From contig CABMIB010000074.1 of NCBI GenBank assembly GCA_902386135.1, forward strand, positions 1-64,000: 64,000 nucleotides of DNA, given 5' to 3'. The notes beneath the pieces are model-generated. The model was not told where the DNA came from and did no database searches. It saw only the letters and a program-made list of their open reading frames with translations. This stretch comes from an uncultured archaeon (lineage in GTDB: Archaea; Halobacteriota; Methanosarcinia; Methanosarcinales; Methanoperedenaceae). Positions 521 through 6,084 of the stretch are shown here, piece by piece. The translations under genes were made by a program, and so were the position numbers. How positions within the stretch are numbered: position 1 is the first letter of the stretch; the number at the start of each line of letters is the position of its first letter.

Positions 521-2884
521 TTATTCTTCGGCAGTCTCAGAGCTATCCCCTTTCTCCTTCTTGCTCCTCTTCTCTGCCTTGGTGCCGGCCTGCGTTGCGA
601 ACACGTTCAGGAGGTCTGTCATTTTTTCGTACTGCGCAGTCTCGATGTGCGAATACCGCAGCGGCTTCTTATGCTTTCTCGTCTCTTTTTTAAGCCTCTT
701 GTAAAGCTCATCCGAGCGGGATGTGAGTTTTTCATCAGTCGTACCTTCGATAAGCATAACGCCTGTGGCTCCGTACTCAAAAGCTGCGTTTACAACATCG
801 GCATCCAGGATATGGATTGACGGCACACTTACGAACCTGACGAGTGACGAGTACTGCTTCCTGTTCACGCCTGCAATATCTGCGGCGGCATAAGCATAAG
901 GGTCGAGGAACACGACAACACCGGGCGCTTCACCCAGTATGGCCTTAAGCTGTGCCTTCAACTGGTTGCGGGTGTAGTTCCGTATCTCAATGCCTTTTAT
1001 CGGGCATGCAGGCACGCATATTCCGCATCCGGTGCATGCAAGAGGCGACAGTACCGCTTTGCCGCCTTCAAGGTTAAGGGCATTATAAGGGCAGGCTTTC
1101 ACACAGTCTCCGCATCCGTTGCACTCCAGGATCATGGGTTTTTCGGGAGGGATGAGGATTATGCCTTTCCCGAGGAACTGCGAGGCCTTATGCGCCGCGC
1201 TTATGCCTTCCGTGACTGAGTCGTGTATATCCTTCGGACCGAGCACGCATCCCGCGGCAAATGCTGACTGGTTCAATGTATTCACCGGGTCAAGTTTTAC
1301 GTGCTTTTCTTCTACGAACCCGTCATCTCCCAGGGGCACGCCGAGTTTATCCGCAAGTTCTTTTGTTCCTGCGGACGGCACGAGAGCGGGGCACAGCACT
1401 ACCATGTCGAATACCTCGCGCCCTTTCATACCAAGGTTCGTATCCTCGTACTGCACCATGAGCGTGCCGTCGGGCTTAGGAATTATTTCAGCAATTTTTC
1501 CGCGTACGTAGTTCACGCCTTTTTCCTGCGTATGGTGATAGAACTCCTCAAACCGCCTTCCCGCAGAACGCATATCTATATAGAATATCCATGCCTCGGC
1601 GTCGCCTTTCATCTTCTTGACAAGCTGAGCCTGTTTCTGCGAGTAAATGCAGCATACCTTTGAACAGTATTTCTTTCCTCTTCCTGTGAAATCCCGGCTG
1701 CCGGCGCACAGCACAAAAGCTACACGGTTTGGGAATGAGCCGTCCGCTTTTTGCAACCTCATGCCGGTCTTGCTCTTTGCCGAGAGCATCTCTTCGAATT
1801 CGATCGCGGTCAGGAGATTGGGGGCAGGATAGTTGTATTCTTCAATAACCGAAAGGTCAAGAGGTTCAAAACCCGTGGCTATTGCAACAGCCCCGACGGA
1901 GATCGTGCTTGTCTCCTCTTTTGCTTCCAGGTTTATGGCATCGCGCGGGCATACCTTCACGCATGCGCCGCACTGTTTGCATTTTGACATATCAATCATG
2001 TATGCCTGCGGGACAGCCTGGGCAAAAGGCAGGAATATTGCGCCAGTGGGACATTTTCTGGCACATGCGCCGCAGGATATGCATTTTTTGATATCCACAT
2101 AGCGCGGGCTGTGTTTGAGGGTTATGGTATAATCCCCGGGGCTTCCCTTTACATCCGCAACCTCGGTCTGCGTGAGCAAAGTGATGTTCGGATGATTGTG
2201 CACTGCTACCATCTTTGGCGTGAGAATGCATTGCGAGCAGTCCAGAGTCGGGAAGGTCTTGGAAAGACCTATCATATGCCCGCCCAGGAAAGGCGCTTTT
2301 TCTATCAGTATCACTTCATGGTTATCGGCCATTTCAAGGGCTGTGGTTATACCTGCAATACCTCCGCCCACGACCAGTGTCCTGTCGACCAGCTTTTTCT
2401 CAAGCGGCACAAGAGGCTCTATGGAGCCGATGCGGGCTACTGCGCCTTTTATCAGGCCTTTGACCTTTGCGTCAATACCTGCTTTATCATGTACCCAGCT
2501 CGCCTGCTCCCGTATGTTCGTGATTTCAAGAAGGTTCGGATTGATACCTGCTTTCTTTGCCATGCTCCTGAAAGTCTCAAGGTGCAGCTTGGGCGAGCAT
2601 GAGCCTATAACGACCCTGTCAATTCTTCCCTTCTCAATATCGTTCTTGATCCTTTCCTGCCCCTGGCTGCTGCACAGGTAATCCTGGATATTGACAATCA
2701 GGTTTTTATCCGTTTTCAGCGAATCGGCAACGGCCTGGAGGTCAACGACGTCGCCTATGTTCCCGCCGCACCTGCACAGGTACACGCCGATCTTCTTTGG
2801 CTGTACATTCCCATTCTCTTTCTTGGGAGGTATTTCGTTTTCAGGCGTTGTCTCACCGGTGAGAGGTAATTCTTTCTCTGTCAT
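521..2884 (-). CDS. hdrA: Heterodisulfide reductase subunit A with fused MvhD-like C-terminal domain
   Basis: The flavoprotein subunit of soluble heterodisulfide reductase, which passes electrons between FAD, iron-sulfur clusters and HdrBC for CoM-S-S-CoB chemistry or related electron bifurcation or confurcation. Visible in 787 residues: an N-terminal Cys-containing domain (YLCRCGGNIGD near 36), a FAD dinucleotide fold VVGGGIAGIT at 171-180, DCSQCILTPK at 215-224, two ferredoxin motifs CxxCxxCxxxCP at 268-279 and 302-313, and two more near 590-640. After about residue 650 there is an MvhD-like domain (AADIAGVNRKQY), but none of the usual [2Fe-2S] cysteines is present. The tail is Lys/Glu-rich. 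It is the last gene of hdrCBA, starting 2 bases after the hdrB stop. The layout resembles the HdrA2 type of Methanosarcina (known fusion). Confidence 0.95.
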   Translation of the reverse strand: MTEKELPLTGETTPENEIPPKKENGNVQPKKIGVYLCRCGGNIGDVVDLQAVADSLKTDKNLIVNIQDYLCSSQGQERIKNDIEKGRIDRVVIGSCSPKLHLETFRSMAKKAGINPNLLEITNIREQASWVHDKAGIDAKVKGLIKGAVARIGSIEPLVPLEKKLVDRTLVVGGGIAGITTALEMADNHEVILIEKAPFLGGHMIGLSKTFPTLDCSQCILTPKMVAVHNHPNITLLTQTEVADVKGSPGDYTITLKHSPRYVDIKKCISCGACARKCPTGAIFLPFAQAVPQAYMIDMSKCKQCGACVKVCPRDAINLEAKEETSTISVGAVAIATGFEPLDLSVIEEYNYPAPNLLTAIEFEEMLSAKSKTGMRLQKADGSFPNRVAFVLCAGSRDFTGRGKKYCSKVCCIYSQKQAQLVKKMKGDAEAWIFYIDMRSAGRRFEEFYHHTQEKGVNYVRGKIAEIIPKPDGTLMVQYEDTNLGMKGREVFDMVVLCPALVPSAGTKELADKLGVPLGDDGFVEEKHVKLDPVNTLNQSAFAAGCVLGPKDIHDSVTEGISAAHKASQFLGKGIILIPPEKPMILECNGCGDCVKACPYNALNLEGGKAVLSPLACTGCGICVPACPIKGIEIRNYTRNQLKAQLKAILGEAPGVVVFLDPYAYAAADIAGVNRKQYSSLVRFVSVPSIHILDADVVNAAFEYGATGVMLIEGTTDEKLTSRSDELYKRLKKETRKHKKPLRYSHIETAQYEKMTDLLNVFATQAGTKAEKRSKKEKGDSSETAEE

Positions 2885-2886
2885 TG

Positions 2887-3729
2887 TTACCTCCCTATCC
2901 TGGCAACTAATTTATCGGTAGGAACAAGGTGTTTGTCCAGTCCCAGTTCTTTGGGACTCATGCCCATGGCAAGACCGATAAGCTGCGTGAAATAAATGAT
3001 CGGCATATCAAATTTAATATTGTATTTCGATTCCACTGCTTTCTGTTTGGCATCAAGCTGGAGGTGGCACATCGGGCATGTCACTACCATGCAGTCTGCA
3101 CCTGATTCCTTTGCCATGCCAAGCAGGTCTTTTGCAAGGCTCAGGGCTAAGTCTTCGTTGGTTATGAGAACCGGACCCCCGCAGCATTTTGTCTTATAAT
3201 AGTATTTTACAGGCTCCGCCCCCAGGGTAAAGATGAGGTTATCCAGCGATTTAGGATTCTCAGGGCTGTCGAATTTGTTCTCAGGTCGAGTGAGCAGGCA
3301 GCCGTAATAGGGCACGGCTTTTATTTTTAATGGTTTTTTGACATTTTCAGCCAGTTTTGCAAGCCCGTAGTCTTTTACTATGACCTCAAGCAGGTGTTTT
3401 GGTTTTGTGTTCCCATCGTATTTATTTGTGAGTTTTCCATTTATCATATTTTTTAAAGTCGCATCCTCAAGCGCTGTATTGGCGCGCATCAGGTTCGAAT
3501 AACAGAGATTGCACGGGGTTGCTATATCAAGCCCTTTTGCCGAGGCAAGCGTCCTTGATGAAAGAGCCGCTCTTACGTTCCTGTCGGGCACATGGAGAGC
3601 GCCGCAGCAGTTCCAGTTTTTGACCTCCTCAAGCTCAATGCCGAGGCGGCGGAATACCGCTTCTACCGACATGCGGTAGTCAATTGCAGTTCCGTGCTGC
3701 GCGCATCCGGGGTAATAAGAGTATTTCAT
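2887..3729 (-). CDS. hdrB: Heterodisulfide reductase subunit B (CCG-domain protein)
   Basis: The catalytic subunit of soluble HdrABC, which carries noncubane [4Fe-4S] clusters and reduces the disulfide CoM-S-S-CoB or performs the reverse reaction. Its 280 residues contain two cysteine-rich CCG modules: C9, NWNCCGALH and TPCNLC in the first, and YYGCLL, TKCCGGPV and VTCPMC in the second. This matches the family pattern C-x(31-39)-CC-x(35-36)-CxxC. There is no signal peptide or membrane segment, so it acts in the cytoplasm. Its start overlaps the hdrC stop by 4 bases (ATGA), indicating translational coupling, and hdrA follows directly. Confidence 0.96.
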   Translation of the reverse strand: MKYSYYPGCAQHGTAIDYRMSVEAVFRRLGIELEEVKNWNCCGALHVPDRNVRAALSSRTLASAKGLDIATPCNLCYSNLMRANTALEDATLKNMINGKLTNKYDGNTKPKHLLEVIVKDYGLAKLAENVKKPLKIKAVPYYGCLLTRPENKFDSPENPKSLDNLIFTLGAEPVKYYYKTKCCGGPVLITNEDLALSLAKDLLGMAKESGADCMVVTCPMCHLQLDAKQKAVESKYNIKFDMPIIYFTQLIGLAMGMSPKELGLDKHLVPTDKLVARIGR

Positions 3730-4385
3730 TTTTCAGCCTCCCCGCCTGTATCGGCTGCTTTTCCCTCATTCTTTTCCCCGGCTTCTGCTTTCGTTTCTGC
3801 ATTCTCTTTTGTTCCGCTCTCCGGCTTTTTCTCCTGTTTTTCCTCCCCGGTTTTGAAGATGGCATCCAGTTCGCGTACATCTTCCATCTTATCAGGCATT
3901 AGTGGCAGTTTTCCCCTGGACATAAGCGACAGGCCGAAAGGAGCCTGTTTTATCATTCCGGGTTCGGACAGGCTGTATTTTGAGATCAGCAGGAACTCCG
4001 ATGCTCTTCCGTTCTTTTTTACCACATCCGAGAAGATATTATCAAATTTGGAATTCTTGTTCTTTATGCCCTCGGCTATAGCTATAGGCTTTAACGTCTC
4101 CATAAGCTCGGTCGGGCGTATCCCCCGCGGGCAGCGTACCGAGCATGAAAAGCATGTTGTGCATATCCAGATGGTATTGCTGTTCAGAACCTCATGTTTA
4201 AGCCCAAGCTGGACCATGCGCACAAGCTGGCGCGGCGTGTAATCCATCTCATGACTTACAGGGCATGAGCCCGCGCATATCCCGCACTGCATGCACGTTG
4301 GTATTTTCTCGCCGACCGGTGTTTTTAGGATGAGGTCGCGAAAAGCAGTGTCTCTGGTTTCCGGTAGTATTGTTTCTTTTTTCAT
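3726..4385 (-). CDS. hdrC: Heterodisulfide reductase subunit C with charged C-terminal extension
   Basis: The ferredoxin-like electron relay between HdrA and HdrB. Two [4Fe-4S] motifs are visible: C31, C34, C37, C41-Pro and C75, C78, C81, C85-Pro. The recognisable HdrC domain covers roughly residues 1-170. After it comes a low-complexity Lys/Glu/Ala-rich tail of about 50 residues. HdrA has a similar charged tail, so the tails may be a lineage trait or a contact surface (inference). It is the first gene of hdrCBA; a TATA-like element lies at 4421-4431 on the minus strand. Confidence 0.94.
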   Translation of the reverse strand: MKKETILPETRDTAFRDLILKTPVGEKIPTCMQCGICAGSCPVSHEMDYTPRQLVRMVQLGLKHEVLNSNTIWICTTCFSCSVRCPRGIRPTELMETLKPIAIAEGIKNKNSKFDNIFSDVVKKNGRASEFLLISKYSLSEPGMIKQAPFGLSLMSRGKLPLMPDKMEDVRELDAIFKTGEEKQEKKPESGTKENAETKAEAGEKNEGKAADTGGEAEK

Positions 4386-4431: not shown

Positions 4432-4490
4432 TTTATTAGTGACACTTTACGCCTGTAGATACCCCCGCAATTTCGACAAAACACAATTTT

Positions 4491-4548
4491 TATCTCGCCT
4501 TTTATCTCGCCTTTTATCTCGCCTTTTATCTCGCCTTTTATCTCGCCT
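4491..4548. repeat. 12-bp tandem repeat, about 4.8 copies
   Basis: The unit TATCTCGCCTTT is repeated head to tail without a single mismatch: full copies begin at 4491, 4503, 4515 and 4527, and a partial copy begins at 4539. The array starts about 60 bases upstream of the putative hdrC TATA box and touches the last codon of the small gene at 4547. The perfect copies suggest recent slippage expansion. The unit is far too short and has no spacers, so this is not a CRISPR array. Confidence 0.95.
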
Positions 4549-5649: not shown

Positions 5650-6084
5650 GTGAAAGGTATAAATGGACTGGAACTATCCCCGAAAAAGATAGACTATCTG
5701 AAATTCATTAAGGATAAGAGAAGGACAAAGACCACGGAAATATCCGATGAGTTCAAAGTCGATCCTTCCACGACGACCAAGATATTACTTGAACTCGCAA
5801 AAACAGATCTGATAACCTATACACCCTATCACGGCTGTTCTCTTACGGAAAAAGGTATCAAGTATGTAGAATTCCTGAACAGGCGGCATGGACTTATAGT
5901 ATGCATGCTGGTAGGCATGGGAATGGACGCAAAAACCGCATGCGAAGCCGCTGGAAGATTCGAATATTTCGTCACGAAAGATGTGGTGGACATACTGTGC
6001 AAGAATTTCTCCCACCCTGACCACAGTCCATGCGGGACAAAGATAAGTCGCGACACCTGCTGTTGCTGTCCGGGAGGTCGCTGA
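5650..6084 (+). CDS. DtxR/MntR-like metal-dependent regulator with Cys-rich tail
   Basis: A 144-residue protein with an N-terminal winged helix (about 1-70, RTKTTEISDEFKVDPSTTTKILLELAK) and a C-terminal helical domain. Toward the end HPDHSPCGTKI lines up with the HPExCPHGxPI signature of DtxR-family repressors. It is extended by DTCCCCPGGR, four consecutive cysteines that I do not know from the family. The start is GTG at 5650. It is the first gene of an operon with a zinc/manganese ABC transporter, beginning 2 bases before the binding-protein gene, so it probably represses metal uptake through the palindrome at 5623-5641. The metal cannot be told from sequence. Confidence 0.8.
   Translation: MKGINGLELSPKKIDYLKFIKDKRRTKTTEISDEFKVDPSTTTKILLELAKTDLITYTPYHGCSLTEKGIKYVEFLNRRHGLIVCMLVGMGMDAKTACEAAGRFEYFVTKDVVDILCKNFSHPDHSPCGTKISRDTCCCCPGGR

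Follow-up and report, generated by a model that had tools for sequence, protein, structure and literature searches.

In the solved complexes that contain HdrA (PDB 5odc, 7bkb and 8rvu), MvhD is a separate subunit and its [2Fe-2S] cluster links the donor module to HdrA. This cluster was described as a station beside the bifurcating FAD, placed in a mobile arm together with the HdrA termini, and by a rotation HA3, the shuttle cluster, comes up to the FAD (PMC12350162). The HdrA2 proteins (MA2868 type, NCBIfam NF040770, 'type Ia' of Lyu et al. 2025) are HdrA-MvhD fusions, and HdrA2 of Methanosarcina acetivorans exchanges electrons with F420 itself (PMC5296606). A C-terminal extension homologous to MvhD was ascribed to HdrA2, unlike HdrA1 (PMC6019823). 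In ANME archaea, an 'HdrA1' was grouped with MA3128, the HdrA1 type of Methanosarcina, and was paired with HdrB2C2 except in ANME-3 (Chadwick et al. 2022). A Methanoperedens genome was reported to have no mvhABG hydrogenase and three expressed hdrABC copies, for which confurcation was proposed in general form (PMC4683180), and the BLZ2 genome note counts two hdrA genes fused with mvhD.

The hdrCBA operon and the HdrA core

The window, i.e. the whole stretch of 64,000 nucleotides analyzed here, was taken from an uncultured archaeon of the Methanoperedenaceae (GenBank assembly GCA_902386135.1, contig CABMIB010000074.1, positions 1 to 64,000), and the hdr genes described below and their parts lie on its minus strand. 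This Methanoperedens genome carries a complete operon in the order hdrC-hdrB-hdrA. The first gene, hdrC (3726..4385), encodes 219 aa with two [4Fe-4S] motifs, while hdrB (2887..3729) encodes 280 aa with both CCG cluster motifs and hdrA (521..2884) encodes a 787 aa protein consisting of a bifurcating-type HdrA core and a fused C-terminal MvhD-like domain. Among named relatives, Ca. Methanoperedens nitroreducens Mnv1 is the closest, with an HdrA of 96% identity. Directly upstream of hdrC, a perfect 12-bp tandem repeat TTTTATCTCGCC was found in 5.1 copies (4488-4548). Elsewhere in the window, an open frame at the edge (1-131) resembles the C-terminus of an integrase/transposase (WYNEERLHRGIGIQ), and a small regulator-like ORF with the tail DTCCCCPGGR (5650-6084) adjoins a znuA/znuC-like metal transporter operon.

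Residues 26-652 of the window HdrA align with the solved HdrA chains (E 4e-157), and every cluster site of this core is intact: the N-terminal site C37, C39, C71 and C96 (2597..2776), the pair C216/C219, the inserted 2[4Fe-4S] ferredoxin domain with eight Cys (residues 268-313, 1946..2083), the flavin-domain FeS site C393, C407, C411 and C412 (1649..1708) and the C-terminal 2[4Fe-4S] ferredoxin domain, again with eight Cys (residues 588-628, 1001..1123). Wherever all compared HdrAs have an FeS cysteine in the core, the orthologs have one too, except for one residue in one sequence. The K409/E356 pair of bifurcating HdrA, whose role has been described (PMC12054007), is also present, with K417 (1634..1636; K in 54/54 aligned HdrAs) equivalent to the FAD-stabilizing K409 and E362 (1799-1801) as its partner. 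The protein resembles HdrA2 in domain order, FAD, core clusters and MvhD fusion at about 36-42% identity. The best NCBIfam model was HdrA2 (NF040770) with 695 bits and the HdrA1 model (NF041778) gave 569 bits; since the cut-offs are 1100 and 1400 respectively, the window HdrA was rejected as a standard equivalog of either family.

The C-terminal MvhD-like domain

The MvhD-like domain occupies residues 641-765 (590..964), and the stretch 521-940 corresponds to residues 649-787 plus the stop codon. An earlier note, made from the sequence, had claimed that the MvhD backbone continues beyond about residue 650, and three kinds of evidence bear this out. The Pfam FlpD/MvhD family PF02662 matched residues 656-763 with 43.9 bits (E 2.8e-11), above its cut-off of 22.3. 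A profile search of the PDB with the cysteine-less domain gave MvhD chains as top matches (5odc, 9sfi, 8rvv, 8rvu, 9sw2 and 7bkb, E 2e-5 to 1e-4) and nothing significant beyond them. Modeled with AlphaFold2, the domain (pLDDT 94.1, pTM 0.89) had 5odh_D, 5odc_D, 8rvu_F and 7bkb_F, all MvhD, as its sole PDB matches with E < 0.001, at TM 0.67-0.75 by query length, and in the full-length HdrA model the domain showed a pLDDT of mostly 86-96. The HdrA core and the MvhD fold are thus shared with the solved complexes, but here the MvhD part is fused and free of ligands.

The reference HdrA2 and MvhD sequences hold five cluster cysteines, in the motifs CxxC, MC[AS]GR and GCxxGxC. At these five positions the window HdrA has a gap/D661, Y663, S689, G714 and a gap/K719. 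DPYAY (residues 661-665, 890..904) replaces CNWC at cluster site 1, VSVPS (residues 685-689, 818..832) replaces VMC[AS]GR at site 2 with S689 in place of the Cys, and at site 3, which is shortened by about 6 residues, EGTTDEKL (residues 713-720, 725..748) replaces GCxxGxCHY. The pairings proposed before (LDPYA, SVPS and TTDEK) were therefore right within a residue or two. At the position of the MvhD motif EWIS[AS]xEGEKF, the domain carries RYSHIETAQYEK (residues 743-754, 623..658), which is near-invariant in the orthologs. In the same genome, contig C101 encodes a paralog that is a true HdrA2 with 1300 bits and whose domain aligns gap-free to the 5odc MvhD with all cluster cysteines present.

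No cysteine was found elsewhere in the MvhD-like domain of the window protein, and since all five ligands are missing, no [2Fe-2S] cluster can form there, as the earlier note had stated. Relocation of the cysteines within the domain was considered and rejected, the few sporadic ones in some orthologs being unconserved. A sequencing or assembly error was likewise rejected, because the separate assembly of Mnv1 and all other compared Methanoperedens orthologs have the same state. In the alignment, none of the MvhD cluster cysteines occurs in about 40 orthologs, whereas every HdrA2-type sequence has 5/5; close relatives thus share the loss. We are highly confident that the protein carries a cluster-free but retained MvhD domain fused to HdrA. 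No earlier mention of the missing cysteines was found in the main texts of the literature, which were the scope of this search, and the observation is provisionally regarded as new.

Distribution, relatives and operon context

Searched across the whole class, the domain profile gave sharply bimodal scores: full-length matches of the ANME type reached 225-265 bits, and fragments and all other sequences stayed at or below about 80 bits. ANME-type HdrA was found in 29/31 genomes of the genus of the window and in three related families (f2, f3 and f4). Within a further family, f5, it was found only in genera g18 and g27, and it was absent from several f2 and f3 genomes and from other f1 genera. 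Family f5 is presumably Methanosarcinaceae, judged from genome G150, which we take to be M. acetivorans C2A. Two proxies served for naming the lineages, namely whether the methanol methyltransferase MtaB is missing and whether multihaem cytochromes of very large size are encoded. Among 31 genomes checked, MtaB was absent from 25/25 of the lineages bearing the ANME type (one of these genomes, G085, belongs to another f5 genus) and present in 6/6 f5 methanogens, and multihaem cytochrome frames of > 2000 aa occurred in several genomes of the MtaB-free lineages. From these two features we infer that the carriers are ANME-2, ANME-3 and alkane oxidizers. In an ANME-like genome (G039, locus L106, 5992-8274), a TAG breaks the HdrA frame where the MvhD-like domain begins; this may reflect a genuine truncation or a fault in the assembly.

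The cysteine loss is common to all orthologs compared, in Methanoperedens as well as in related ANME-2-, ANME-3- and alkane-oxidizer-like lineages, and its confinement to Methanoperedens was accordingly rejected. Nor is it a peculiarity of this HdrA, a point on which the earlier reading was corrected. HdrA1 of M. acetivorans (L185, G150) and other Methanosarcinaceae HdrA1 proteins have an MvhD-like domain with 0 cluster cysteines (PF02662 at E 2.1e-15 and 2.1e-8 in the two that were scanned with Pfam). Since HdrA1 was denied an MvhD extension in PMC6019823, this domain seems to have gone unnoticed. The cluster cysteines are also missing from L203, L208 and L209 (family f15), which we read as Methanocellales-like, and from L204-L207, L214 and L224. 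In an unrooted tree of the HdrA core, from which the C-terminal domain was excluded, a branch with support 96/95, recovered in 94% of bootstrap trees, had 27/27 cysteine-less proteins on the same side. The domain tree including free MvhDs, also unrooted and with long branches meeting at this point, set the cysteine-less proteins apart with 100/100. The window HdrA thus very probably belongs to a wider cysteine-less class including Methanosarcina HdrA1, and one ancient loss is the simplest reading; it is read as loss and not gain because free MvhDs and all HdrA2s carry the cysteines.

Methanosarcina HdrA1 shares with the window HdrA the cysteine-less domain, a complete operon (hdrACB) and the side of the core tree, but it is 35-38% identical, forms a separate clade (100/100) and has another gene order. 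One ANME-3-like genome (G186) holds both ANME-type HdrA and HdrA1. In a Methanoperedens genome (G019, L116, 6001-8364), an extra cysteine-less HdrA with its own hdrCBA operon was observed on a long branch near HdrA1.

The two kinds of HdrA also differ in their neighbors. The cysteine-less HdrA has hdrB and hdrC as neighbors in 27/30 loci, whereas the fusion with all five cysteines had them in 0/20, these being counts over related and hence non-independent loci, some with flanks of 1.5 kb only. A neighboring gene with repeated ferredoxin motifs (polyferredoxin) was found in 15/20 of the cysteine-bearing loci and in none of the cysteine-less ones. In the genome of the window, the gene that follows the cysteine-bearing HdrA2 (L002, 3837-5114) is polyferredoxin-like and has seven ferredoxin motifs, an arrangement seen in many lineages. 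Adjacent hdrBC is missing at L105, L107 and L114, where ANME-type HdrA is solitary; these loci are of family f4, to which the one-contig genome G036 belongs. The HdrB encoded next to HdrA at ANME-2 loci shares 66% identity with M. acetivorans HdrB L233, which we take for HdrB2; the loci fit the HdrA1/HdrB2C2 pairing of Chadwick et al. 2022. In Methanoperedens, the HdrB of this operon differs (33% identity to L233) and a separate HdrB2-type copy lies on contig C63, so that the HdrBC partner of this HdrA seems to have been exchanged relative to other ANME-like lineages.

Electron routes without the MvhD cluster

Our leading but tentative reading is a soluble HdrABC in which the MvhD domain would have been converted to a cluster-free structural or docking module and mid-potential electrons would bypass the [2Fe-2S] cluster. 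The FAD itself would take up or give off the electron pair, most plausibly by hydride exchange with F420; ferredoxin would be served by the inserted ferredoxin domain and CoM-SH/CoB-SH by HdrBC. In a methane oxidizer, the net reaction would be a confurcation of reduced ferredoxin + CoM-SH + CoB-SH to F420H2 + heterodisulfide. The direct F420 route at the flavin is the more speculative part, a possibility that we hold with some reserve: the M. acetivorans HdrA2 that reacts with F420 still has its MvhD cluster, so that carrying this reactivity over to the flavin of an HdrA without the cysteines is an extrapolation. Two points count against the leading reading as a whole. The energetics of the thiol-oxidizing direction need ferredoxin co-oxidation. 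In the solved complexes, the MvhD cluster has the C-terminal ferredoxin domain on its donor side, and the eight cysteines that this domain retains here suggest that some donor or carrier still uses it. The earlier proposal that this HdrA would take electrons by a different route is a fair inference, and the protein does differ from Methanosarcina HdrA2, which has its five cysteines kept.

That the domain is a decaying, functionless relic could be argued from the loss of every cluster ligand and the shortened third site, but the selection data already contradict this very improbable idea. Median dN/dS (Nei-Gojobori) over 20 Methanoperedens orthologs, with synonymous sites close to saturation, was 0.038 for the MvhD-like domain and 0.045 for the core, against 0.256 for the adjacent charged 22-residue C-terminal tail (residues 766-787 plus stop codon, 521..589); moreover, 55/134 domain columns are invariant across 11 diverse orthologs and the cysteine-less state has persisted across several archaeal lineages. 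Such strong purifying selection makes a docking or structural role, as suggested in the earlier note, reasonable. Retention of a donor-arm part after cofactor loss is also seen in the non-catalytic Molybdop/ElpA subunits of Hdr complexes (PMC12054007, PMC12350162), although there another subunit and cofactor are concerned and the FdhB/ElpB partner still supplies electrons. The high conservation of the domain and the kept C-terminal ferredoxin clusters of the orthologs would also suit a platform on which a separate donor or acceptor docks, e.g. a free, cluster-bearing MvhD or a dehydrogenase with direct access to those ferredoxin clusters, and the genome of the window does have free cysteine-bearing MvhD genes, next to the HdrA on contig C62 (L003). 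We consider such a platform improbable, since these free MvhDs sit in another hdr cluster and no donor gene was recognized in or adjacent to the operon among the relatives examined. A little less probable still is that the fold gained a new site for a ligand or partner, e.g. a nucleotide, a flavin, F420 or a carrier dedicated to it, which would give anaerobic methane and alkane oxidizers a second substrate port of their own; the candidate motifs for this long shot are DPxAYAAAD, PSIHxLD, EGTTDE and RYSHxETAQYEK, all near-invariant in the ANME-type orthologs.

The main rival to the leading reading dispenses with the mid-potential port altogether. The complex would then be a plain ferredoxin:CoM-S-S-CoB oxidoreductase with no bifurcation, in which electrons pass from ferredoxin through the ferredoxin domains and the HdrA clusters to HdrC and HdrB. 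Both ferredoxin domains are intact, the NCBIfam family of Methanosarcina HdrA1, which is also cysteine-less, is named ferredoxin:CoB-CoM heterodisulfide reductase, and the deletion of hdrA1B1C1 in M. acetivorans was interpreted as decreased ferredoxin redox cycling (PMC9963511). However, the window HdrA retains the bifurcation-linked K/E pair, and in a methane oxidizer a downhill flow from ferredoxin to heterodisulfide would undo thiol oxidation. We regard this ferredoxin-only complex as unlikely, though it deserves serious weight.

For the cysteine-less class, an MvhD relay cannot exist, since it is impossible without the cluster, and models routing electrons from H2, formate or F420H2 through MvhD do not apply to these proteins. 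Cysteine state and operon context together give a simple rule that splits the fused HdrAs into two functional classes, which domain-based annotation lumps. As M. acetivorans HdrA1 has the same loss and the organism is genetically manipulable, the question is directly testable there.
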